A stretch of DNA of 28,566 nt from a virus. Each line of letters starts with the position of its first letter. Within the stretch, counting starts at the first letter, position 1. The notes beneath the pieces were generated by a model. The model was not told the origin of the DNA, searched no databases, and was given only the letters and a program-made list of their open reading frames with translations. Position numbers and translations under genes: made by a program. Shown here piece by piece: positions 5,369 through 23,743 of the stretch. The stretch spans positions 1,232 through 29,797 of IMG/VR virus record IMGVR_UViG_3300030108_001208; one strand, 5' to 3'.

Positions 5369-6802
5369 ATGTTATACAAATTTAAAACTAAGCCATATGC
5401 ACATCAAGAAAAGGCATTAGAAATGTCATGGGATAAAGAAGTATTTGCCTATTTTATGGAGATGGGTACAGGTAAATCAAAAGTATTAATAGATAATATG
5501 TCTATGCTCTATGATAGAGGTCTTATAAATGGTGCTATTATTATAGCTCCTAAAGGTGTTTATAAGAACTGGGCTGATTCAGAGATACCTACGCACATGG
5601 CAGATCACATTGAGAAAAAGGTGGTCCTTTGGAAAACATCAGAAACTTCAGATAAGTATATGAAAAATTTATATAGCGTGTTTAAAACTGGCACAGACTT
5701 TCATATTCTTATAATGAATGTAGAGGCTTTTTCTTATCCAAAAGCTTTGAAGTTTGCAGAAAGATTTTTATCATGTCATAAAGCAATGGTAGCGGTGGAT
5801 GAATCCACATCTATAAAAACACACAATGTAAAAAGAACAAAAAATATTTTAAGTCTTACAGATAAATGTGCTTATAGAAGAATACTTACAGGTTCACCCG
5901 TAACTAAATCACCTTTAGATTTATATTCACAATGTAAATTTTTAGATCCTTTTCTTTTAGGTCATCAATCTTATTATACATTCAGAGCTAAGTATGCGAT
6001 TATGAAAAAAATTATGGTGGGTGCTAGATCTGTAGATATTGTTGTTGGATATATTAATCTTGGAGAACTATCAGAAAAACTAAAACCTTTTTCTTATCGT
6101 GTATTAAAAGATGATTGTTTAGATTTACCAAAGAAAACATTTATTAGACGTACAATAGAATTATCTGACGAACAGAAAAGAGTTTATAATCAGATGAAAA
6201 AAGAAGCTCTTGCTTATTTAAATGGTAAAATGGTTTCTACAAATACAGTTATTGTACAGTTAATGAGATTACATCAAATAACTTGTGGTCACTTTACATC
6301 TGATGATGGAGATATACAAAATTTAAAAAATAATCGTATCGGTGAATTAATGGATATCCTTGAAGAGGTAGAGGGCAAAGCTGTTATCTGGGCACATTAT
6401 AGACATGACATAGATATTATAGTTAAAACTATTGAAAAAAAATATCCAGGTTCTGTTGTAACTTATTATGGAGATACGTCTACGGATGACAGACAAAAAG
6501 CTATAAAAGAAATACAAAATAAAAATGGTAACGTTAGATTTTTAGTAGGCACTCCACAAACAGGTGGTTATGGTATTACACTTACAGGTGCATCAACAAT
6601 GATATATTATTCTAATGGTTATGATCTTGAGAAAAGACAACAATCTGAGGCAAGGATAGATAGAATAGGTCAAGACAAACCAATGACTTATATTGATCTT
6701 ATTGCAGAAGATACGATAGATGATAAAATTGTGGTGGCTCTTCGTAAGAAAGTAAATATCGCAACAGAAATAATGGGTGAAGAATTAAAACAGTGGATAT
6801 GA
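5369..6802 (+). CDS. SNF2-like superfamily 2 DNA helicase/translocase
   Basis: 477 residues, the only large plus-strand gene. Domain 1: HQEKAL (12-17) as the Q-motif-like region, Walker A MEMGTGKSK (30-38), Walker B VAVDEST (141-147, DEST in place of DEAH/DEGH) and motif III TGSP (174-177). Domain 2: VIWAHYRHD near 339, the YYGDTSTDDRQKAI region with D363 and R365, motif V TGGYGITLTGAS (398-409) and motif VI QQSEARIDRIGQ (424-435). The motif VI form is typical of SNF2 family C-terminal helicase domains. It lacks chromatin-reader or nuclease domains, like the compact version seen in marine phages. It is probably a dsDNA translocase acting in replication, recombination or removal of host proteins from phage DNA. 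It faces away from the primase operon, and its weak AGAAAGAAAAAG leader provides only a poor Shine-Dalgarno. Confidence 0.92.
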   Translation: MLYKFKTKPYAHQEKALEMSWDKEVFAYFMEMGTGKSKVLIDNMSMLYDRGLINGAIIIAPKGVYKNWADSEIPTHMADHIEKKVVLWKTSETSDKYMKNLYSVFKTGTDFHILIMNVEAFSYPKALKFAERFLSCHKAMVAVDESTSIKTHNVKRTKNILSLTDKCAYRRILTGSPVTKSPLDLYSQCKFLDPFLLGHQSYYTFRAKYAIMKKIMVGARSVDIVVGYINLGELSEKLKPFSYRVLKDDCLDLPKKTFIRRTIELSDEQKRVYNQMKKEALAYLNGKMVSTNTVIVQLMRLHQITCGHFTSDDGDIQNLKNNRIGELMDILEEVEGKAVIWAHYRHDIDIIVKTIEKKYPGSVVTYYGDTSTDDRQKAIKEIQNKNGNVRFLVGTPQTGGYGITLTGASTMIYYSNGYDLEKRQQSEARIDRIGQDKPMTYIDLIAEDTIDDKIVVALRKKVNIATEIMGEELKQWI

Positions 6803-14475: not shown

Positions 14476-15336
14476 TTACTTGGTTTTATCAGTATCGTCA
14501 ACTTTTTTGACATGCATGAGTTCGTCCCAAAAACGACCACAATATTGATATTCTCCGGTATGAGTAATGTAATCCATTATGTAAATAAAGATTTTACCAC
14601 CCATTTCAGTCCATCTTTTACAGAAACCAAAATCTTCACCAAAATATTGTTTAGTCTTTGGATCGTGTATGCATTCAAATAGATTATAAAAGTTCTTCTT
14701 TTTAACTTCACTACCATTTAAGAAGGTAGGTTGATTAATCTCTAACTCAGGATAATGATCTATCATCTTCTCTATAACAGATCTTTTTATTAACATACAT
14801 CCAGTAGGTGCGTGAGTTACTTCACAGATACCATTCTCAACAACTATCTTTCCAGGGTTATCCATCTTAACAGGAAAAGTGTATCCACCTTTCATCATAT
14901 CATCTTGGTCTTCAAACTTTTGTATTTTCATTCTTTCCCAAAGATTAGCCCAGTTAAGACTCTTTAAAGGATACGGACAAGCAATAACATCTTTATCGTA
15001 TTCTAACATTTTAAATATAGTCTTTGCTTGAAAGTCTATATCAGAATCGATGAATAATAGGTCTGTGTAACCATCTTTATGATTGAGGAAATCGGCCACA
15101 CAGAGATTTCTACCTTGTTGAACCAGTGATGATTTTAACAAAGTAAAACTGACTAAAATGTTTCTTAACATACACTCTTGTTGAAACATTAAAACTGATT
15201 GACAATAATGAATACTAACCTCGCTATGCACGGGTGTACATATCATTATTTTTCTTTGAGGTTTCCCCGGACCCACATGAACTTCTTGGGTCTTGTCGTT
15301 ATCGTTAAACCAAATTAGATTACTTTTTTCTGACAC
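14476..15336 (-). CDS. GT-A fold glycosyltransferase (GT2-like)
   Basis: 286 residues. The sequence shows the GT-A plan: an N-terminal nucleotide-sugar binding strand KIMICTPVHSEVS (about 29-41), QQGRNLCVADFL (73-84), and the metal-binding DxD within LLFIDSDIDF (93-102; D97, D99). The acceptor-side motif is FGEDFGFCKRW (232-242; E234, D235), and a late His (H259 in ITHTGEY) is a possible third metal ligand. It should transfer a sugar from a nucleotide-sugar donor. The start is GTG at 15336, supported by AAAAGGAG seven bases upstream and a 17-base overlap with the preceding glycosyltransferase gene. The target could be a virion protein, phage DNA or the host envelope; the position inside the virion gene block favours a virion or surface target. 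Confidence 0.85.
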   Translation of the reverse strand: MSEKSNLIWFNDNDKTQEVHVGPGKPQRKIMICTPVHSEVSIHYCQSVLMFQQECMLRNILVSFTLLKSSLVQQGRNLCVADFLNHKDGYTDLLFIDSDIDFQAKTIFKMLEYDKDVIACPYPLKSLNWANLWERMKIQKFEDQDDMMKGGYTFPVKMDNPGKIVVENGICEVTHAPTGCMLIKRSVIEKMIDHYPELEINQPTFLNGSEVKKKNFYNLFECIHDPKTKQYFGEDFGFCKRWTEMGGKIFIYIMDYITHTGEYQYCGRFWDELMHVKKVDDTDKTK

Positions 15337-16261
15337 CTATAGCTCCTTTTAAAAATCTATTCCAAGAAGATGCTTGTTTAGCCCAGCTATAATAAATATC
15401 TGTATATGATTTTTGAAACTTAAGATGTTGTATAATAGGTGGTTCAGATAAAGTTTCTGCAGCCATCTCTATAGCCTGACCAAATTTAATCGCTAGTCTT
15501 CTGTGATTAGAATCATAAGGTATATACATTGGAAACTCTGCACCTGTTTCAAATAAAGCTCCGTAGTTAGTTGTAATACAATACAAACCAGCTGACATAG
15601 CTTCTATTAAAGATATACAAGATGTCTCTTCCCAAATGCTTGGATACACAAACATATTATAGTTTTTTAAATTTTGTATAATATATTCATGAGGCTTGTA
15701 TCCTACGTAAGATACATTAGGTAATTTTTTTGCTTGTTCATATAACTCTACATATGCACCGTCATTTTGTTTTTTAAAATCAGCTCCATATATTTCAGTG
15801 CTAGAGTATACATCTAAAGTTATTAGTGGGTTTTTTACAAGCTGCATAGCACCTAGTAAAACAGATAATCCTCTCCAAGGTGTAGAGTGATACAATAATT
15901 TTATAGGTTTCTTTTGTTTGTGTGATGGTGCACCTTCTATTTTCTCTATACCATTTTTAATTACGATACATCTATGTGTATCTAAACCAAACATATTTCT
16001 AAAGTTTTGACAGTTCCAATGACTGTTAAAAACATACCAATCATACTTCTTATGATTATCTTTGTTCTTAAACCAAGGATATATATTAGGTTGATTCCAT
16101 GAGTTCTTTTGCCAAAGAATATTTAATTTAGTTGAATGTAAAGGTATCTTCTCAGGTACAGATGTTGTGATCTGTACTTGATCTAATAATTGTTTGTCAC
16201 AGTATTTATTAAGATACTCTAACTGTATTTCAGTTCCGCCTCTAGGACTTTGGTTTGTCAT
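15320..16261 (-). CDS. GT-B fold glycosyltransferase (GT4-like)
   Basis: 313 residues. The N-terminus goes almost directly into RGGTEIQLEYL (7-17), the glycine loop that binds the donor in GT4 enzymes, so the usual first beta strand is missing. An in-frame TGA four codons upstream rules out a longer form. The C-terminal domain has LLYHSTPWRGLSVLLGA (122-138), the KPHEYI stretch near 199 and the donor-binding E-x7-E in EETSCISLIEAMSAG (211-225; E212, E220). The combination is typical of GT4 family retaining transferases. The gene overlaps the 63-residue gene upstream by 20 bases and the GT-A gene downstream by 17, so the three form one coupled unit. Substrate unknown. Confidence 0.87.
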   Translation of the reverse strand: MTNQSPRGGTEIQLEYLNKYCDKQLLDQVQITTSVPEKIPLHSTKLNILWQKNSWNQPNIYPWFKNKDNHKKYDWYVFNSHWNCQNFRNMFGLDTHRCIVIKNGIEKIEGAPSHKQKKPIKLLYHSTPWRGLSVLLGAMQLVKNPLITLDVYSSTEIYGADFKKQNDGAYVELYEQAKKLPNVSYVGYKPHEYIIQNLKNYNMFVYPSIWEETSCISLIEAMSAGLYCITTNYGALFETGAEFPMYIPYDSNHRRLAIKFGQAIEMAAETLSEPPIIQHLKFQKSYTDIYYSWAKQASSWNRFLKGAIGVRKK

Positions 16262-16767: not shown

Positions 16768-16928
16768 GATAAGAAATAATTAAATGCATCCTGTTCGTTT
16801 TTTAAATCTGTTTGAAAACTAAAATTAAGTTGATTTTTTATATTGTCAAGAGAGGCGAGTATCTGTCTTTGGTTATCTACCTCATATTCATCTTTTGGTT
16901 CTGGTATATATACAGTTATCTTTGCCAT
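16764..16928 (-). CDS. Small hypothetical tail-region protein
   Basis: 54 residues, MAKITVYIPEPKDEYEVDNQ onward. A longer form would need a TTG start at 16979, well inside the upstream gene. The ATG at 16928-16926 overlaps the upstream stop as TAATG, the same coupling seen at other junctions here, so the short form is preferred. The protein has one beta-like strand followed by an amphipathic helix (QILASLDNIKNQLNFSF). The function is unknown. It sits between the tail hub gene and a small beta-rich virion gene and overlaps the latter by four bases. Confidence 0.65.
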   Translation of the reverse strand: MAKITVYIPEPKDEYEVDNQRQILASLDNIKNQLNFSFQTDLKNEQDAFNYFLS

Positions 16929-18874
16929 TATCTTCTTCCGTCTGGTCTTGCGTCTAATCTTATCGTACCATATCGCCAAGATTCTCCAGTAGAGTCATTA
17001 GCAATTTTTATAGAAACTAATCTACCTCTAGCTCTGGTATCAATTTTATCTGTAGTGCTTGTTACAGTAAAAGGACCTAAAGGTGATGAGGTTGCCGTGT
17101 TGTTTGGAAAGTCATTTATAAATAAAGTAATTTTTGAATTACCTTGCAACACTTTAAAATCAGGTATGAATCTTCTTACAGACATGAAGAATTGACCATC
17201 TCCTCTAAGATCCGCAATGTCTCGAGTGTTTGTAATATCGTAGTCTCCAGATCTTATAAAAGAATCTATAGATGTTGTTCCATCAGCATTAACTTGATCA
17301 GTTCCATTTTCATGTGAATATAAAAAAGTAGCTCCAAATGTATTTGTAATTCCTTGTATTGGAAAATCAGGTGTTCTATTATCTACGTAGTCAGTGGCAT
17401 ATGGATTATCCCTGATGCCTGCATCAATGTAAGTGGTTCTATCTAAAGAGCTTGTTGTCCAAACACCTTCAGCATAATTATATGTTACACATCTATCTAT
17501 TTGTACTGATTCTGATTTTGGATAAAACCAATTTACTTCTGTGTATAAACTGTTGTGACCTGCGTACACTGTTTTTGAAGAACCAAAATTTATTCCAAGA
17601 TTATCTCCGTCTGTGGTAAACACAAAGTCTTCTACTAAACATGGTAATGATTTTACCGTACCATCATAGACATAAAATCCACCAGCTTTTCCCATCCAAT
17701 AAACAGCGCCTTGAGCATAGACCGCTCCGTGTTGACTTATACATCCACAATTAGTTCCAACCTGTTTTACAGAAAAAGTAAAAGGAGGTCCTACAAACTG
17801 AACAACGTATGCAGCTGTGTCTGTTAAGATTAAAATATAATCTTTACCCTGAACAGCAGTTACGATTTCGTTACCATCATCTAATCTAAAAGTTCCTGCT
17901 GTGTTGGTGGCAGTGGGTGCATATGTGTTTAAATCTTCTTGATTAGAGAATCTTACAAACATAGGATCTTGAGTTGATCCTGTTCCAATTGTTGTTTCTG
18001 TTCCCATGTGAAATAAATGTCTGTCTCTGTCTGATACAATTGTCATTACAGATTGTGTTGGATTATTTGTAACTGAAAATCCAGAAGTGTTACTTGCTGC
18101 TCTAACAGATCTTGCACTTGATGCTCCAGCGTTCCAAGTAAAAGTTTTACCGTTGTGTATAGTTGCAACTAAGACTTGACCAAAATTACTTAACGACCAA
18201 TTACCTGGATCTAAAGTTACATCAGAAACAGAACTCTCTGTGCCCCATGTGCCTGCACTGTAGGCGTCTGTACCCCAGCCATACCCAATGGTTTGAATTG
18301 TAGGTCCAACGATCGCGTAAGGATTAACACTAGTAGATCCTTGTGCGGACATACCTGTGCCTGTCTCTGTTGCTGAAGCTAAAATAGTAAAGCTATTAGT
18401 AGCAACAGTTAAGATCTCATAAGATTTTTCTAAAACACCAGCTGTAAAAGATGTTGCTCCACCACCAGGTAAAGAACCTACGCTTGATAAGGTGATGTAT
18501 CTACCAGCTTGTAAACCATGTGATGTTTTATTAATGGTGACCGTTGCTGAACCATTTGTCGTTGTAAATGTGCAACTAGTTAACGCTGTGTCGAGTGGAC
18601 TAATATCAAAGAAAGATTCATCATAATATAAAAACAATCCTTGTGATGTCCCAATAGCTGTATAGGCTTCTCCTGCTAAACTTGTAAAGTTATGTACAGC
18701 TCTGGCTACACCAGGTAGAGTTTTATCATCCAAAGATAATTGTTGCCAACCACCTATTTTTTCTGGAAGACCATATCTAAATCTAACGAAGTCACCATCT
18801 ATCCATTGAGATTCTGCTCCGGATGCTGTTGCTTGTTTATTAAAACCTGGTCTAAAGTTTAGCTTTTGTAACAT
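16928..18874 (-). CDS. Tail hub / packaged-DNA stabilisation protein, P22 gp10-like
   Basis: 648 residues. The N-terminus MLQKLNFRPGFNKQ followed by WIDGDFVRFRYGLPEKIGGW (23-42) is a highly conserved opening in marine phage tail proteins of the phage stabilisation type (P22 gp10). The rest has repeated beta-strand blocks consistent with a beta-propeller hub, such as VYYD-like and GGFYVYDGTVKSL elements. The C-terminus (GRLVSIKIANDSTGESWRYG) resembles the end of the family. It would form the tail needle-proximal hub closing the portal channel. It is longer than P22 gp10 (about 470 residues); an inserted region at about 95-215 with two WG turns (GYGWGTDAYSAGTWG) accounts for part of this. The ATG lacks a strong Shine-Dalgarno; TATAGT lies eight bases upstream. 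Confidence 0.75.
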   Translation of the reverse strand: MLQKLNFRPGFNKQATASGAESQWIDGDFVRFRYGLPEKIGGWQQLSLDDKTLPGVARAVHNFTSLAGEAYTAIGTSQGLFLYYDESFFDISPLDTALTSCTFTTTNGSATVTINKTSHGLQAGRYITLSSVGSLPGGGATSFTAGVLEKSYEILTVATNSFTILASATETGTGMSAQGSTSVNPYAIVGPTIQTIGYGWGTDAYSAGTWGTESSVSDVTLDPGNWSLSNFGQVLVATIHNGKTFTWNAGASSARSVRAASNTSGFSVTNNPTQSVMTIVSDRDRHLFHMGTETTIGTGSTQDPMFVRFSNQEDLNTYAPTATNTAGTFRLDDGNEIVTAVQGKDYILILTDTAAYVVQFVGPPFTFSVKQVGTNCGCISQHGAVYAQGAVYWMGKAGGFYVYDGTVKSLPCLVEDFVFTTDGDNLGINFGSSKTVYAGHNSLYTEVNWFYPKSESVQIDRCVTYNYAEGVWTTSSLDRTTYIDAGIRDNPYATDYVDNRTPDFPIQGITNTFGATFLYSHENGTDQVNADGTTSIDSFIRSGDYDITNTRDIADLRGDGQFFMSVRRFIPDFKVLQGNSKITLFINDFPNNTATSSPLGPFTVTSTTDKIDTRARGRLVSIKIANDSTGESWRYGTIRLDARPDGRR

Positions 18875-18908: not shown

Positions 18909-19553
18909 CTATACCCTTTTACTTTCAGTCAGAGGGTATTTCAAGCCTAAAGAATGTATACTTTCAAAGAAAGTTATGAGAGTCATCCTTGGTTCTTTGA
19001 CACTAAAGTCTTCAAATCCATCTGCTGCGTGATATTGAGCTCCATCAAACATCACTAATCTATTTGGAATAGATTCAAATACAACAGATTTATTAAAGTC
19101 ATTAGACACCATTTCTCTGTAAGTGTCATATTTTATATCCAGCGTTTTGTAGTATTCATGTTTTTTATCTGACCATCTTTCTTTATTAAAATTTTTCTGT
19201 TTGTATAAAGATGTGCCACAGTGTTTGTGTTCACTTAAATAGATGATAGCAGTTAGTTCTGTATTCTCATGATCTCTATGTATCCAACCATGACTTTTAT
19301 ATTTATTGCCATCTATCTTTTGAAAGTATTGTCTAGCAGTCCACTGTATATTTTCTTTCATGGGATATATTAAAGATAGTATTTTATTAGTGCTCCAACT
19401 AAAAAAGTCTGGATCTATGGTGTGAAGTAAGTCTGTTCTCTCACCAGGCCAAAGAGATCTAGGGTCTTTTTTGTATTTTAAAGTATTACCGTAAGATTTT
19501 ATTTTGTGATAGTCGTCAAAGAAATTATCTACAACTACAGATGGCCATATCAT
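18909..19553 (-). CDS. 2-oxoglutarate/Fe(II) oxygenase, DUF6445-like
   Basis: 214 residues from the preferred start. The iron-binding triad is visible: H92 and D94 in GWIHRDHENTEL, and H175 in MFDGAQYHAADGF. R189 in KEPRMTLITFF is the expected 2-oxoglutarate carboxylate ligand. The strand AIIYLSE after the HxD motif is typical of the double-stranded beta-helix fold. An RTDLLH...DPDFF element near 39-51 recalls the DUF6445 group. A TTG at 19574 would add seven residues, but the ATG at 19553 overlaps the previous stop as ATGA, as elsewhere in this cassette. It is the last gene of the cassette. The substrate is unknown; a protein side chain (Pro, Lys, Asn or Asp) is the usual kind for small enzymes of this fold. 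Confidence 0.8.
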   Translation of the reverse strand: MIWPSVVVDNFFDDYHKIKSYGNTLKYKKDPRSLWPGERTDLLHTIDPDFFSWSTNKILSLIYPMKENIQWTARQYFQKIDGNKYKSHGWIHRDHENTELTAIIYLSEHKHCGTSLYKQKNFNKERWSDKKHEYYKTLDIKYDTYREMVSNDFNKSVVFESIPNRLVMFDGAQYHAADGFEDFSVKEPRMTLITFFESIHSLGLKYPLTESKRV

Positions 19554-20077
19554 TCTACGATATCCATATCCCAAGATATGATTCTTTTTGGTTTGTTTGT
19601 TTTTTGTGGTGGACTAAAATGAGATAAAAATTTAGGAGTTATAACTATATCACCTTCACTACTGCTAGTGGGCACATAAGCTGTAGTGTCTGTTACAAAA
19701 TTATTCCAAGGTTGTACATAAAACGTTTGTGATGATCCTTTTGGAAAATCTAAATATAATATTCCTGTTAAACCTAAAGATCCATGATTGTGTACAGGAT
19801 GATGATCTCCTTTTTTATAAGTTACACTCCATACGTCTGTTATCTTTATATTAACTTCTGTGTATTTACAAAATTCTTCAAGCTCGGGTAATATTAGTTT
19901 TGAAAACTCACTGATAAATTCTTGATCAACAAGTCCTCTATTAGAAGAGAAAGAATATGTTTCATTTCTTTTTTCTGGATATTTATCTAATAATTTTTTT
20001 ATTTTTTCTTTTCTAACGACATGATTGTTCATCTCGTGTGACCAACATAAAATGCTAAATAAAGTATTCTCTTTCAT
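19550..20077 (-). CDS. 2-oxoglutarate/Fe(II) oxygenase, TIGR02466-like
   Basis: 175 residues. The metal site uses an H-x-H form: H96 and H98 in HHPVHNHGSLGLTGILYLDF, with distal H153 in PKFLSHFSPPQ and the co-substrate ligand R165 in KPKRIISWDMDI. HxH followed by SGxLYL-like strands is characteristic of the TIGR02466/2OG-FeII_Oxy_5 group seen in marine phages. It is smaller than most hydroxylases of the fold but has all four key residues and should be active. It overlaps both neighbours by four bases. The Trp/Pro-rich stretch FYVQPWNNFV near 119-128 may line the substrate site. No substrate is evident. Confidence 0.8.
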   Translation of the reverse strand: MKENTLFSILCWSHEMNNHVVRKEKIKKLLDKYPEKRNETYSFSSNRGLVDQEFISEFSKLILPELEEFCKYTEVNIKITDVWSVTYKKGDHHPVHNHGSLGLTGILYLDFPKGSSQTFYVQPWNNFVTDTTAYVPTSSSEGDIVITPKFLSHFSPPQKTNKPKRIISWDMDIVE

Positions 20078-20730
20078 TTTCCCTTAAACCAATCTGGTAA
20101 AGCTAAACAAGGCCTACCGTCATACATATTATTGTTTTTAGATTTCGCAGTATTATAATGTAAAAAAACTTGTATGCAATCGTTTTCTTGTAAAGGTTCT
20201 CTCCAATGTTCGTTTCTAATACCTTGATAAATTAATATGTCACCAGGTTCTAAATTTATTGCAACACCTTTGTTCTTTCCTTTTGTATATGTTTTTTCTT
20301 TTACATTAATTGTGCCACCTTTAGGATTAGGGTCTATATAAATAGGCCACTGCGATCCTCCTAAATTGACAGTTGTAGATATCTCACAACTCATTCTATC
20401 TTTATGTCTTTTAAGCTCATCACCTTTTTGATAAATACGTGCATATGCGTATGTAGGAACTAATTCTATTTTAGTGACTTTTTCTAAAATAGGTTGACAC
20501 TTTAACATTAAAGTTTCCATAGCTAGATCTCCATAAGTTGCATACGAGTTTGGAATTTGTGGATCTCCAAAAGTTCCCCAGCTTTGATCTAATGTAGAAA
20601 GGTATCTTTGCTTTCTCATGATACTATGTACCTCTCTTTTTAGTTTCATGTAGTTAGTTAAAAAGACAGCTAACTCTTTTGGTATAGCTTTTCTTACAAC
20701 TTCAAAACCATCTTTCTTCCATTTATACAT
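20074..20730 (-). CDS. 2-oxoglutarate/Fe(II) oxygenase, prolyl-hydroxylase-like
   Basis: 218 residues. The metal ligands are H109 and D111 in DELKRHKDRMSCEISTTVNL and H175 in IRNEHWREPL. The strand pattern YARIYQKGD before the HxD motif and GDILIYQG before the distal His match the double-stranded beta-helix fold. After the distal His, the position where Arg or Lys usually binds 2-oxoglutarate is occupied by ENDCIQVFLHY with no basic residue. Either R177 or another residue must take that role, or co-substrate binding is altered. The N-terminus (KDGFEVVRKAIPKELAVFLT) is a familiar opening of phage prolyl-hydroxylase-like proteins. It is coupled to the PKHD-type gene upstream by an eight-base overlap. 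Confidence 0.85.
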   Translation of the reverse strand: MYKWKKDGFEVVRKAIPKELAVFLTNYMKLKREVHSIMRKQRYLSTLDQSWGTFGDPQIPNSYATYGDLAMETLMLKCQPILEKVTKIELVPTYAYARIYQKGDELKRHKDRMSCEISTTVNLGGSQWPIYIDPNPKGGTINVKEKTYTKGKNKGVAINLEPGDILIYQGIRNEHWREPLQENDCIQVFLHYNTAKSKNNNMYDGRPCLALPDWFKGK

Positions 20731-21346
20731 ATGGTTTACCTGCGCTCCACATAACTAAACTATATCTTTTACCTTTGGTTACAGGTTTAACCCTGTGCCA
20801 AACAAAACTTGGAAATACCACCACAGATCCTTTTGGTAGTATTTCTTTACACTCTCTAATCTCATTCCTTTCAGGATGACCATCCATGCTAAATTCTAAA
20901 AGACCACCTTCATACTCAGAAGGATCTGATAAAGTACAAGTCATAGATAGTTTTCTAATTTTTCCTACAAGGTTTGGATTATCAATAGACTCATCGTAGG
21001 GAACATTATTAGCATCACAATGCCAATCATAATGTTGATTCTTATCATATGTTGTAAATTGACAAACTTCATTCCAATCTGTGTCATGATTCCAACCTGC
21101 TGCGTAGTTTGCTTCTATCACGTAAGGATGTATTTCTTTATATATCCAGTTTTGATCTAACCAAGAAATATCAGAGTCTCTTAATTTTTTTAAATTTTTC
21201 ATATTCTTCTTACTTAATTTTTTGTCAGAATATTCTTTAGTTATACCTTTCTTAAATTCTTGTTGTTTTGCAAAATTAATTACATCATCACACCATGTAA
21301 GTGATAATGCAGCAGGAAAATACCAATAACTATACTTTACGTTCAT
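20723..21346 (-). CDS. 2-oxoglutarate/Fe(II) oxygenase, PKHD-type hydroxylase
   Basis: 207 residues, the clearest hydroxylase of the set. The metal ligands are H109 and D111 in HYDWHCDAN and H184 in VFPSFVWHRVKPVTKG, and the 2-oxoglutarate ligand is R194 in GKRYSLVMW. Between them, RKLSMTCTLSDPSEYEGGLL (131-150) followed by EF is the standard beta-helix core of PKHD-type hydroxylases (PiuC/YbiX, prolyl 4-hydroxylase alpha-like). All catalytic residues are intact. It probably hydroxylates a protein side chain. It overlaps the gene upstream by four bases and the one downstream by eight, so its product is likely made in step with the other oxygenases. Confidence 0.9.
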   Translation of the reverse strand: MNVKYSYWYFPAALSLTWCDDVINFAKQQEFKKGITKEYSDKKLSKKNMKNLKKLRDSDISWLDQNWIYKEIHPYVIEANYAAGWNHDTDWNEVCQFTTYDKNQHYDWHCDANNVPYDESIDNPNLVGKIRKLSMTCTLSDPSEYEGGLLEFSMDGHPERNEIRECKEILPKGSVVVFPSFVWHRVKPVTKGKRYSLVMWSAGKPYV

Positions 21347-21930
21347 TCTATGTCTATATTACCAGATACAGATATTCTTTCAACGTTGGTCTTATAAGGT
21401 GTGACGTGGTGATATAAACCAGCAGGAAATATAAACATATCTCCTTCCTCTGGCATGAAAGTTCGTTGTGTTATGTAACCACCCACTCTACTACCTTGCT
21501 CTCCAAATTGAAAAATAATAGATCCTGGTTTACCTGATGTTCCTATGTATTTTTCATCTATTAATTTTTGTGGAACTTTTGTGTAAATAACAAAAGAAAG
21601 ATCTCCATCATGAAAGTGTGGAGGATTATATTCATATCGTTTCATAAAATTAATCCAAAGATCTATTAATTTAACTTTATTTATTGGTTTAGCTAATGAT
21701 TGTCTTTTTACAGATTCTTCTAAATAAGATTGAAAGTAAGGTTTAAAAGTTTCCATAAACCATTCTTTGTCTTTATCCTCATAAAACTTTTCATTATCAA
21801 GATGACCCGCTAGAGTAAATCTTGCATCTCTTGTTAAAGTCTTTGCTCTTTTGTTAAGTTCTTTTATTAATTTATTTTCTACTTTAAATTTTGCAAGGTA
21901 AGGACCCCACGCATACCATTCATGTTTCAT
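21343..21930 (-). CDS. 2-oxoglutarate/Fe(II) oxygenase, HxH type
   Basis: 195 residues. The metal-binding motif is H105-F-H107 in NPPHFHDGDLSFVIYTKVP. The distal His is H174 or H175 in PAGLYHHVTPYKTN, and R185 with S187 (VERISVSGN) fits the co-substrate site. GDMFIFPAGLYHHV is a textbook second half of the double-stranded beta-helix. It resembles the 175-residue HxH protein downstream more than the HxD members. The N-terminal 80 residues are helical and charged. It is coupled by ATGA overlap to the preceding metal-site-less homologue (start at 22475), to which it aligns well around the core, so the two may derive from one ancestor or work as a pair. Confidence 0.83.
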   Translation of the reverse strand: MKHEWYAWGPYLAKFKVENKLIKELNKRAKTLTRDARFTLAGHLDNEKFYEDKDKEWFMETFKPYFQSYLEESVKRQSLAKPINKVKLIDLWINFMKRYEYNPPHFHDGDLSFVIYTKVPQKLIDEKYIGTSGKPGSIIFQFGEQGSRVGGYITQRTFMPEEGDMFIFPAGLYHHVTPYKTNVERISVSGNIDIE

Positions 21931-22475
21931 AAAATTTTAAATTTAAATACCGATATGTACATTGGTTTTTCACCTTCATTCTCAGTTATTTGATGAGGTA
22001 TTTCACCATTAAATACAAAAAAATAGTTTTTACAAACTCTTTCATTCCATTGTCTATCAGGCTGTTCATTTGTAGGCACCATAAGTTCTACTGTGGCTGG
22101 CGGACAATCTTCACAACATCCTGTTTCAGAACAGTCAACAAAAAACATACAAACAAAATCATAGTTGTCTTCTTGAAGTTGTACAAAATCACCTTTCTTT
22201 AAACGAATATTATCATGACCTAAACACATTACGTCAAGATTGTGATAAGCTCTTAATCCATTAATAACGTATTCATGCATCCATGTATAATCTTTAGTAA
22301 AGTTTTTCATACCTAAAATATTTTCTTTAAATATATACTTTCTAAAAAAACCTAATTCTTCAAAATCTTTTTCTATATGTTCTTTTACTCTATCTAAATT
22401 AATTGAAGATTCTTTTGGTATTGCTCCAGAAAAACAAAATTGTTGTTTAAGAATTTGTTTATGTATCGCTTTCAT
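21927..22475 (-). CDS. Oxygenase-like protein lacking the metal motif, with Cys cluster
   Basis: 182 residues. The C-terminal half follows the same plan as the next gene: QLQEDNYDFVCMFFVD aligns with HFHDGDLSFVIYTKVP, and FVFNGEIPHQITEN aligns with FIFPAGLYHHVTPY. The H-x-H iron motif is replaced by Q99-L-Q101, and the Arg before the ISV strand is replaced by Tyr. Only the distal His (H161) remains. After the first core strand it has C115, C120, C121 and C124 (CSETGCCEDC), a possible metal or disulfide site absent from its neighbours. It may be an inactive scaffold, a regulator or a re-purposed enzyme. It opens the cassette; its ATG has no Shine-Dalgarno and follows a TATAAT by six bases. Confidence 0.65.
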   Translation of the reverse strand: MKAIHKQILKQQFCFSGAIPKESSINLDRVKEHIEKDFEELGFFRKYIFKENILGMKNFTKDYTWMHEYVINGLRAYHNLDVMCLGHDNIRLKKGDFVQLQEDNYDFVCMFFVDCSETGCCEDCPPATVELMVPTNEQPDRQWNERVCKNYFFVFNGEIPHQITENEGEKPMYISVFKFKIL

Positions 22476-22510
22476 ACTTAGATTATACTAAGTTAAATCA
22501 GGATTTACAA
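22476..22510 (-). promoter_or_regulatory. Putative promoter/operator of the oxygenase cassette
   Basis: On the minus strand: TTGTAA (22505-22510, four of six to TTGACA), a 17-base spacer, then TATAAT (22482-22487, perfect), then six bases to the ATG at 22475. The TATAAT is the loop of a perfect inverted repeat, ACTTAG-TATAAT-CTAAGT (22493 to 22476). The start would fall at or near the A of the ATG, giving a leaderless message, consistent with the lack of a Shine-Dalgarno. The repeat could be an operator or, in read-through RNA, a hairpin ending right at the AUG. The stop codon of the upstream gene lies inside the left arm. Confidence 0.55.
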
Positions 22511-22877
22511 CCCAAGCTTTTTGTGCTTCATCCCACATATAAGGACCTCCACTTTCAGGGTGTGCTACAGGAGCTTCCCATAGGCAAGTTGTTTCATTTA
22601 AAACCCAACTATCGTGTCCTTCAGGTTTTTCCTGTATAAATGCATCTCTAGATGGATCATAAGTTCCACCAATATAAGCATAATTTTTTCTAAAAGGTGT
22701 ACCACCTAAAGCGTGTACATTTCCTAATGTATTATAAGAAGTTTGTTTCCAATTTGACCAACCATGCACGCTTTGTAAATAAGCGATACCTGCTTCCTCT
22801 GTTGGAGCGTTTTCATCAGCACAAGTTAGTACATCTAAAACAACATTGTTTGAATCTAGTTTAGCAAAATGAGCCAT
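22488..22877 (-). CDS. Conserved tail-region protein of marine phages
   Basis: 129 residues. The pattern MAHFAKLDSNNVVLDVLTC, WKQTSYNTLGNVHALGGTPF (43-62), RKNYAYIGGTYDPSRDAFI (63-81) and SWVLNETTCLWEAPV (89-103) is one I recognise from a widespread family in cyanophages and other marine phages, usually annotated as hypothetical or virion-associated. It often sits next to tail-fibre genes, as here. Its start overlaps the stop of the Gly-rich gene by one base (TAATG). The function is unknown; a small fibre-associated or chaperone-like role is inferred from context only. Confidence 0.8.
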   Translation of the reverse strand: MAHFAKLDSNNVVLDVLTCADENAPTEEAGIAYLQSVHGWSNWKQTSYNTLGNVHALGGTPFRKNYAYIGGTYDPSRDAFIQEKPEGHDSWVLNETTCLWEAPVAHPESGGPYMWDEAQKAWVVNPDLT

Positions 22878-23743
22878 TATTCTTCATATCGAATGATTAC
22901 CACACCCGATCCTCCATTTTTTCCAGAAGTAGAACCCACACATCCTGAGCCTCCGCCTCCAGTGTTTGTTGACCCAGCTTGACCTTGGCCTCCGCCTCCG
23001 CCCTGGCCTCCGGTTCCGCCCGGCGCTCCTACCGAACCTGCACCAGTTCCACCACCAGCATAAAAAGTTGCTGATCCTGTAATATCATTTGGAGATCCGT
23101 TTCCACCTGGACCACCTTGATTTCCTCCGCCGGTTGCAGATGCGCCCCCGCCGCCACCACCGCCCTCACATGGTGGTGAATTAGATCCACAAACTGGACC
23201 TCCTGAATTTCCTTCTGGTGGAGAGAACCCACCTGTATTTCCTGATCCTCCAGTTCCGCCTTTTGTAGCGCCACCGCCAGATCCTCCAGATTTTCCTTGG
23301 TGAGGTCCGCCAGCTTGTCCGCTGGATCCCATTCCTCCTCCGCCACCACCTGATGACGAGAAAGTTGAGAAAGTAGAAGTTCCTCCGTTTCCACCTCTTG
23401 AGCCGCCTCCCGTGCCTGCGCCTCCAACAGTGATTGGAAAATCAGCTACAGAAATAGCATGTCCGGCTCCAGTAGCAGAAGGTACATTTGTTCTATATCC
23501 TCCGGCTCCTCCGCCGCCCCCGCCTTTTTCGCCCGGGCTAGTTCTTCCTCCGCCTCCAGCACCTCCCGCAACTACCATAAATTCTACAGTTTGTCCTGCA
23601 GGTGCTTTTGTTACAGAAAATGTTCCGGGTGAGTTGAAAGTGTGAATTTTAAATCCACCTGATTGAGTTATAGTTCCACCAGTGGCATCAATAACGGGTT
23701 TACCGGCTCCGCCTCCTAAACCTAATAATCTAAATCCAAACAT
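22877..23743 (-). CDS. Glycine-rich tail-fibre/adhesin-type protein
   Basis: 288 residues, dominated by glycine from about residue 60 to 280 (long GGGGGG runs, GGxGG, PGGNGS, GAPGGTGG). The N-terminal cap (TGGTITQSGGFKIHTFNSPG, then VEFMVVAGGAGGGG) and the last strand (GVVIIRYEE) look like a beta sandwich closed around the Gly-rich core, as in the Gly-rich domain I recall from marine phages. Long polyglycine helices of this type form the receptor-binding tips of some phage fibres (for example S16 gp38); that parallel is an inference. C185, C192 and C268 could form a disulfide. The coding strand is G-rich, so the local GC is far above the rest of the window. It follows the fibre genes and precedes the conserved 129-residue gene. 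Confidence 0.75.
   Translation of the reverse strand: MFGFRLLGLGGGAGKPVIDATGGTITQSGGFKIHTFNSPGTFSVTKAPAGQTVEFMVVAGGAGGGGRTSPGEKGGGGGGAGGYRTNVPSATGAGHAISVADFPITVGGAGTGGGSRGGNGGTSTFSTFSSSGGGGGGMGSSGQAGGPHQGKSGGSGGGATKGGTGGSGNTGGFSPPEGNSGGPVCGSNSPPCEGGGGGGGASATGGGNQGGPGGNGSPNDITGSATFYAGGGTGAGSVGAPGGTGGQGGGGGQGQAGSTNTGGGGSGCVGSTSGKNGGSGVVIIRYEE

Follow-up and report, generated by a model that had tools for sequence, protein, structure and literature searches.

A variable set of 2-oxoglutarate/Fe(II) oxygenase genes in a fixed slot beside the tail-fibre module of a pelagiphage: a possible virion protein tailoring island

The window analysed here, a 28,566-nucleotide stretch of viral DNA (IMG/VR record IMGVR_UViG_3300030108_001208, positions 1,232 to 29,797), belongs to an HTVC023P-type pelagiphage, a SAR11-phage type of the ocean. 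In this study, we found that positions 18909-22475 carry a cassette of six genes, all on the minus strand and transcribed in the order g6 to g1, in a slot that holds 2OG/Fe(II) oxygenase genes in every related phage examined. Considering their location and chemistry, we put at about even the chance that the six genes form an island for the tailoring of virion, that is tail-fibre, proteins. The cassette and its neighbours are as follows.

22877..23743, minus strand: Gly-rich protein (PF21722 Gly_rich_2, 1.2e-12), adhesin-like, candidate substrate
22488..22877, minus strand: n129, fibre-associated protein (phrog_7759, 2.1e-37), 5' border of the island
21927..22475, minus strand: g6, pseudo-enzyme with a predicted degenerate 2OG-oxygenase fold, first in the cassette
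21343..21930, minus strand: g5, HxH oxygenase, 2OG-FeII_Oxy_5 (PF13759), phrog_81
20723..21346, minus strand: g4, PKHD-type oxygenase, 2OG-FeII_Oxy_3 (PF13640), phrog_61, core gene of the island
20074..20730, minus strand: g3, P4H-like 2OG oxygenase, phrog_2954 (family name 'ferrochelatase')
19550..20077, minus strand: g2, HxH oxygenase, 2OG-FeII_Oxy_5, phrog_81
18909..19574, minus strand: g1, DUF6445-family oxygenase, phrog_1644 (labelled 'minor coat protein')
16928..18874, minus strand: 'stab', tail/virion stabilization-type protein (phrog_3287, 2.6e-82), 3' border of the island
15320-16261: glycosyltransferase, downstream of the cassette in the window

Neighbouring genes overlap by 4 (g6/g5), 4 (g5/g4), 8 (g4/g3) and 4 bases (g3/g2). 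As listed, the g1 reading frame has a TTG start and a 25-base overlap with g2; moving the start to an in-frame ATG at 19553 reduces the overlap to the usual 4 bases (ATGA), and this ATG is, judging from the sequence, the likely start. With this start, the six consecutive genes with 4-8 base overlaps described in a first-pass annotation of the window are borne out. A promoter-like scan gave a count near shuffle level, a terminator-like scan one slightly above it (7 vs 3.6 in shuffles), and the sole PADLOC match was a generic 2OG match on g4. At the borders, the 'stab' protein shares 68.6% identity with HTVC027P gp75, and the Gly-rich gene stands before the island in most same-strand islands. 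The n129 gene is found next to a fibre or structural gene in numerous marine phages, whether or not they carry oxygenases; its presence also in phages with no annotated oxygenase nearby led us to reject it as a dedicated oxygenase partner.

The Pfam and PHROG family matches of g1, g2, g4 and g5 are beyond chance, and the iron ligands of g1 to g5 (HxD/HxH...H) fall in the same columns of the profile alignments, so that the full triads read earlier in five members are both conserved and column-aligned; these five are predicted 2OG/Fe(II) oxygenases that look active from their sequences. In g1, which belongs to DUF6445 (PF20043; 3.8e-13, 50.3 bits against a cut-off of 24), H99, D101, H182 and R196 are invariant and the ligands align with those of g4. 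In g4 (PF13640, 3e-15; PDB match PiuC, 2.9e-6), H109, D111, H184 and R194 are conserved. The HxH proteins g5 (PF13759, 7.4e-14; H105, H107, H174 and R185 conserved) and g2 (2OG-FeII_Oxy_5, 6.6e-8; H96, H98 and H153) also align with the other families. The 2OG-anchoring column after the distal histidine holds Arg in g1, g4 and g5, Lys164 in g2 and Gln187 in g3. Curated cut-offs place some of these proteins outside the named families nearest to them: g2 and g5 score 30.2 and 42.8 bits against 62.5 for TIGR02466, and g4 scores 60.8 bits against at least 143 for the YbiX/PiuC PKHD equivalog, to which it is thus related without being a member. The earlier subfamily reading (PKHD-like g4, P4H-like g3, DUF6445 g1, TIGR02466-like g2 and g5) was therefore right, with g2 and g5 below cut-off, and so was its view that the cassette is not a simple recent duplication, since BLAST among the six proteins finds only g2 and g5 similar (24%).

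The sixth protein, g6, had no match at all in the profile searches, Pfam and PHROG included. However, its AF2 model (pLDDT 70, pTM 0.73) has 2OG oxygenases and P4H as top Foldseek matches in the PDB (E ~3e-5), and the best 50 of 85 PDB matches at E<=0.001 are nearly all 2OG oxygenases. We therefore predict from the model that g6 has a 2OG-oxygenase-like double-stranded beta-helix fold. The HxD/HxH iron ligands are absent from g6, as the description of one degenerate member had it, and also from its distant relatives placed likewise after n129.

Despite its family name, g3 does not appear to be a ferrochelatase. Its one family match is the PHROG named 'ferrochelatase' (phrog_2954, 1.8e-46), and no PF00762 (ferrochelatase) match was found at E<=1 in 55 phrog_2954 members, nor in the record of the window and seven related phage records; the control genomes were positive in the same search. 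A search of PDB sequences with the g3 profile gave no match, so a fold search was needed. The AF2 model (pLDDT 93) matches P4H 4iw3 (4.6e-9) as well as HygX, PHD2 and AlkB, and among the 50 PDB matches listed for it all are 2OG-dependent oxygenase folds; with g3 and g6 alike, structure prediction thus returned the double-stranded beta-helix that the first-pass annotation had proposed to check. H109, D111 and H175 are invariant in 55 sequences of the family, while the 2OG-site Arg is replaced by an invariant Gln187, which means that g3 either holds 2OG in some other way or takes a different cosubstrate; Gln187 itself, Arg98 and Arg177 are candidates for the role of the missing Arg. The predicted fold, the iron triad and the lack of PF00762 argue against a ferrochelatase, and on this sequence and model evidence g3 is a P4H-like 2OG oxygenase and the phrog_2954 name is wrong. 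Two published ecological inferences (PMC9599517, PMC11561400) count phrog_2954 among heme/iron genes, and their 'ferrochelatase' counts would accordingly be oxygenase counts.

Oxygenases occupy the slot from the tail-fibre module to 'stab' in 152 of 152 islands of related contigs (79 after dereplication), in agreement with the dedicated position by the tail-fibre genes proposed earlier. The number of oxygenases has a median of 4 and a maximum of 11 per island. A g4-family gene together with at least one oxygenase is present in all 152 islands and all 79 dereplicated ones, and loci fetched through the flanking 'stab' gene alone agree (60/60). This core gene belongs to one of two orthogroups in 148 of the 152 islands, 4 of these 148 having both; OG1 alone accompanies the Gly-type fibre module in 83 of 89 islands and OG2 alone the other types in 56 of 63, an association that is confounded with phage clade. 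Where g3 is present, g4 lies upstream of it (63/63 islands). In HTVC027P, HTVC023P and 023Pt_psg01, all genomic PF13640/PF13759 matches lie between tail-collar/fibre genes and 'stab', and in HTVC033P all lie in a single cluster after the Gly-rich gene.

Beyond the core, island content is hypervariable, with 114 orthogroups, 46 of them singletons, and oxygenases making up 79% of the genes. The g2, g5 and g6 orthogroups are confined to the source phage's own species, and the full six-gene order, which had been put forward as a unit that might recur, was seen again only in two contigs of that species (L088 and L089). In relatives, genes are swapped, gained, lost and inverted, and sister islands also encode flavin halogenases, sulfotransferases, carbamoyltransferases and methyltransferases. 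Free swapping with unrelated cargo had been named as grounds for giving up the idea of a dedicated system: the swapping is there, but the cargo is mostly oxygenases or group-adding enzymes. Among 75 further halogenase loci, an oxygenase lies no more than two genes away in 73 and a fibre or stab marker no more than five in 68. The island is opposite in strand to the tail genes in 15 of the 79 dereplicated islands and mixed in 10 more, so the island need not be transcribed together with the tail operon. Island content did not covary significantly with Gly-rich divergence (Mantel-type partial r 0.15, p 0.087, 22 islands) in a comparison that also took in n404, n337, n146 and stab divergence, and the Trp content of fibre proteins showed no increase with halogenase presence. 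A few differences in fibre composition (Pro, His, Asp) were seen in exploratory comparisons that are phylogenetically confounded.

These features suggest a model in which the tail-fibre module ends in a constant slot whose small 2OG/Fe(II) oxygenases vary among phages except for one core enzyme, g4, usually followed by g3. The enzymes would be made late, alongside the tail proteins, and each would hydroxylate side chains on a virion protein soon after its synthesis; the likeliest substrates would be the Gly-rich or fibre proteins encoded just upstream, and in other phages side chains may also be halogenated, sulfated or carbamoylated. g6 could assist without catalysing, either as a partner of another enzyme or by holding the substrate, and fast selection by host receptors on surface-exposed virion proteins may drive the diversification of the repertoire. 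Because island genes are swapped, added, lost and inverted, a fixed six-step pathway is unlikely, and the content is better described as an open repertoire built on a core enzyme. More tentatively, and at somewhat below even likelihood, we propose that receptor-binding tail fibres owe chemical diversity to a modular, fast-swapping system, in which a universal core hydroxylase is joined by a combinatorial choice of hydroxylases, halogenases, sulfo- and carbamoyltransferases and pseudo-enzymes, and that this system operates in two unrelated families of phages that infect the most abundant bacteria of the ocean. If so, the adhesin would vary chemically and not by sequence alone, and host recognition by a dominant ocean virus would rest on a layer that genome annotation does not predict.

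Other explanations have to be considered. The oxygenases may act on host metabolites or drain 2-oxoglutarate or iron, reprogramming host nitrogen/energy metabolism, an idea put forward for cyanophages (PMC3037559, PMC9602691) and for pelagiphages (PMC9599517, PMC12753301). We regard such auxiliary metabolism as unlikely: it leaves unexplained both the fixed slot beside the tail fibres in podoviruses and T4-like phages and the halogenase, sulfotransferase and carbamoyltransferase companions, and its iron version loses the 'ferrochelatase' leg with g3 being an oxygenase. Those companions bear differently on modification of the infected cell's glycans or outer-membrane proteins, e.g. against re-adsorption of released phage to debris. 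The usual substrates of carbamoyl-, sulfo- and glycosyltransferases are glycans, the glycosyltransferase gene at 15320-16261 lies downstream, and cellular relatives of g3 and g4 adjoin genes for group-adding enzymes, namely TPR-sulfotransferases, glycosyltransferases and an acyltransferase, a setting that also speaks for the tailoring model. However, flavin Trp-halogenases are not glycan enzymes and the cassette lies among the tail-structural genes of lytic phages, and we judge a host-surface role to be similarly unlikely.

That the slot is simply permissive for recombination and gathers accessory genes of unrelated function, often oxygenases by chance, would suit the many orthogroups and singletons and the frequent inversion; we consider it improbable, given that one fold class dominating the content, a core lineage in nearly all islands and an invariable g4-g3 order are not expected of random cargo. 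Least probable in our view is TET/AlkB-like modification or repair of phage DNA or RNA. Although g3 has weak PF13532 (AlkB-like) similarity with AlkB among its structural matches, and HTVC023P-type phages are reported to have DNA hypermodification enzymes (PMC9599517), the top sequence and fold matches are prolyl hydroxylase and PKHD types, the neighbours are tail rather than replication genes, and the companion enzymes do not act on nucleic acids.

That these phages have multiple 2OG genes is already published: in HTVC023P-type pelagiphages, the same phage group as our source phage, eight 2OG genes were described that are non-orthologous and lie together with 'ferrochelatases' (Wittmers et al. 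2022, PMC9599517). That study describes the genes as close by without being adjacent and takes the partner for a heme enzyme, whereas here they are adjacent, overlapping and in one slot, shared with halogenase, sulfotransferase and carbamoyltransferase genes, and the partner, g3, is predicted to be another oxygenase. We did not find the conserved slot, the universal core gene, the mixed tailoring chemistry or the reassignments of g3 and g6 in the papers available to us. The same layout after fibre, Gly-rich or n129 genes occurs in the T4-like marine phages S-SSM5, HTVC008M, S-RSM4, syn9 and S-CREM1, the last with nine genes in a row annotated 2OG or JmjC. T4-like cyanophages, a different virus family, are reported to carry 24 (S-SCSM1) and 10 (S-CREM1) 2OG genes, and, as in the pelagiphages, divergent small oxygenases run near fibre genes, often with a Trp halogenase. 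In the portions of those papers available to us (PMC9602691, PMC9964418), the arrays are interpreted as host reprogramming or antibiotic protection and no link to the fibre module is drawn. As for single proteins, bacterial PKHD/PiuC (9ghl) and P4H (4iw3) resemble g4 and g3 in fold and iron site, although phage g4 falls below the YbiX equivalog cut-offs; by the title of its PDB entry, the Pseudomonas P4H structure is that of a complex with a protein, EF-Tu. Finally, TlxI, which ranks high among the structural matches of g6, is part of the TlxIJ oxygenase heterodimer (7vbq/7vbr), which belongs to a natural-product pathway and provides a precedent for paired oxygenase subunits.

The phage record in IMG/VR is 29.8 kb long, and the window spans most of it. 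The phage is an HTVC023P-type pelagiphage, since its stabilization protein (gene stab, phrog_3287) shares 68.6% identity with the counterpart in Pelagibacter phage HTVC027P and 58.3% with that in HTVC023P. Six genes, g6 to g1 in order of transcription, lie between fibre-side genes and stab:

22877-23743, minus strand: Gly-rich, PF21722 adhesin-like protein
22488-22877: n129, phrog_7759 fibre-associated protein
22475-18909, minus strand: g6 to g1
16928-18874: stab

Given an ATG as the g1 start, g6-g1 overlap by 4-8 bases. Recent duplication as their origin was ruled out by comparing the six proteins with each other. A DEAD-type helicase (5369-6802) is encoded on the plus strand, opposite to almost every other large gene, these being on the minus strand; in HTVC027P and HTVC023P this helicase is likewise opposite in strand to the tail genes.

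The first-pass annotation had read the cassette as five 2OG/Fe(II) oxygenases plus a degenerate member. Pfam, PHROG, and NCBIfam searches identified g4 as PKHD-like 2OG-FeII_Oxy_3, g5 and g2 as 2OG-FeII_Oxy_5 with HxH, and g1 as DUF6445, matched g3 only to phrog_2954 ('ferrochelatase') and the related phrog_3531, and gave no family match for g6. In profile-profile alignments the iron ligands of g1-g5 are in register (H/D or H/H), consistent with conservation among relatives, and the column after the ligands holds Arg in g1, g4, and g5, Lys in g2, and Gln in g3. The predicted g6 structure (pLDDT 70, built from nine sequences) matches P4H-like and TlxI oxygenases at ~3e-5, and g6 contains no HxD. 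It is a divergent counterpart of the small protein kept in first position of other islands, which is likewise without iron ligands.

The predicted structure of g3 (pLDDT 93) has Pseudomonas P4H (4.6e-9), HygX, PHD2, and AlkB among its matches, and ferrochelatase is absent from the 50 listed. PF00762 has no match in the g3 family, the window record, or seven related phage records. Because an invariant Gln187 replaces the expected 2OG-binding Arg/Lys, cosubstrate anchoring in this family may be unusual. In bacteria, g3 homologues neighbour TPR-sulfotransferases, glycosyltransferases, and an acyltransferase, often with a g4-like gene alongside. Phrog_2954 has been treated as a seasonal 'ferrochelatase' gene (PMC11561400). 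The PHROG labels 'ferrochelatase' (phrog_2954/3531), 'minor coat protein' (phrog_1644), and 'DNA endonuclease V' (phrog_274) stand on proteins behaving as 2OG-oxygenase folds, and RefSeq phage records have taken them over; in the window, the labels at issue fall on g3 (20074-20730) and g1 (18909-19574).

Related loci were retrieved via stab, g3, a halogenase, and a carbamoyltransferase, and island genes, from the last fibre-side gene to stab, were mapped with HMMs made from the window proteins. Oxygenases and a g4-family gene were present in 152/152 islands, and in 79/79 after dereplication (oxygenases: median four, maximum eleven); these counts are not population frequencies, since contigs are partly redundant and the searches picked up genes closely related to the queries before more distant ones. 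Retrieval through stab alone, which does not select for oxygenases, gave g4 in 60/60 islands. The g4 core comprises two orthogroups (148/152 islands carry one, four of these both) and tracks the fibre module, with only OG1 in 83/89 Gly-type islands and only OG2 in 56/63 non-Gly-type ones. Relative to transcription, a g4 gene lies upstream of g3 in all 63 dereplicated islands with g3, and where oxygenase genes neighbour each other on one strand, 84% overlap or abut. Otherwise the island gene set is open-ended, with 114 orthogroups of which 46 are singletons, and g2, g5, and g6 were found solely in the window phage's own species. The island is inverted relative to the tail genes in HTVC027P, and among the 79, 15 are wholly inverted and 10 mixed. 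In HTVC027P, HTVC023P, and 023Pt_psg01, all whole-genome PF13640/PF13759 matches fall between collar/fibre genes and stab. Downstream of stab, a group-1 glycosyltransferase (15320-16261) and a conserved phrog_1574 protein (14476-15336), retained in many relatives, are possible partner chemistry; some relatives (L011, L034) have a single oxygenase directly ahead of this glycosyltransferase.

Among the non-oxygenase island genes are those for sulfotransferases, a Trp-type flavin halogenase, a Nol-like carbamoyltransferase, and cupin-like and methyltransferase-like proteins, the last labelled from reading the sequences, with no family match. At 75 further halogenase loci, an oxygenase lies no more than two genes away in 73, and a marker gene (fibre or stab) no more than five away in 68; the corresponding counts among 12 carbamoyltransferase loci are 11 and 10. 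The same layout adjoins fibre genes in the T4-like marine phages S-SSM5 (carbamoyltransferase, 2OG, g3, n129, then four more), HTVC008M (n129, five oxygenases, neck genes, with a halogenase farther along), S-RSM4, syn9 (two halogenases, then the array), and S-CREM1 (nine consecutive array genes). The island also occurs on contigs (L267, L268, L269, L271, L277, L278) placed in species genomes under the names Maricaulis, Flavobacteriaceae, or Pelagibacteraceae; since most hold fibre and stab genes, they appear to be phage contigs that were binned or sorted together with the cells. In a SAR11 single-cell contig (SAG-MED28), a fibre-like gene is followed two genes later by a g3-g4 pair (L300 5905-7103), possibly from a prophage or co-sorted phage. 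L279, a 118-kb contig binned as Porticoccaceae, resembles a T4-like phage and has two halogenase-like genes along with g4, g3, and g1.

The fixed position at the fibre module in two phage families, the universal core hydroxylase, and the group-adding companions lead us to infer that the island enzymes tailor a phage-encoded late product, with fibre-side proteins as the nearest candidates. The companion enzymes all attach small groups, either to side chains or to sugars; the presence of halogenases and hydroxylases among them favours a protein over a purely glycan substrate. Covariation of island content with Gly-rich protein divergence was not significant, and the composition of fibre proteins showed no Trp signal with halogenase presence.

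The open literature searched gave no account of one conserved slot built around a universal g4 core, of the mixed tailoring enzymes in it, of a pseudo-enzyme first gene, or of the reassignment of phrog_2954 from 'ferrochelatase', and virion tailoring is not proposed in any of the open-access journal papers found. Multiple divergent 2OG genes in HTVC023P-type phages were already known (PMC9599517), and 24 are given for S-SCSM1 in PMC9602691. Published accounts have assigned phage 2OG genes to host metabolism, to 2OG/nitrogen signalling, to DNA repair, and to protection against antibiotics (PMC3037559, PMC9602691, PMC9964418, PMC9599517, PMC12753301).
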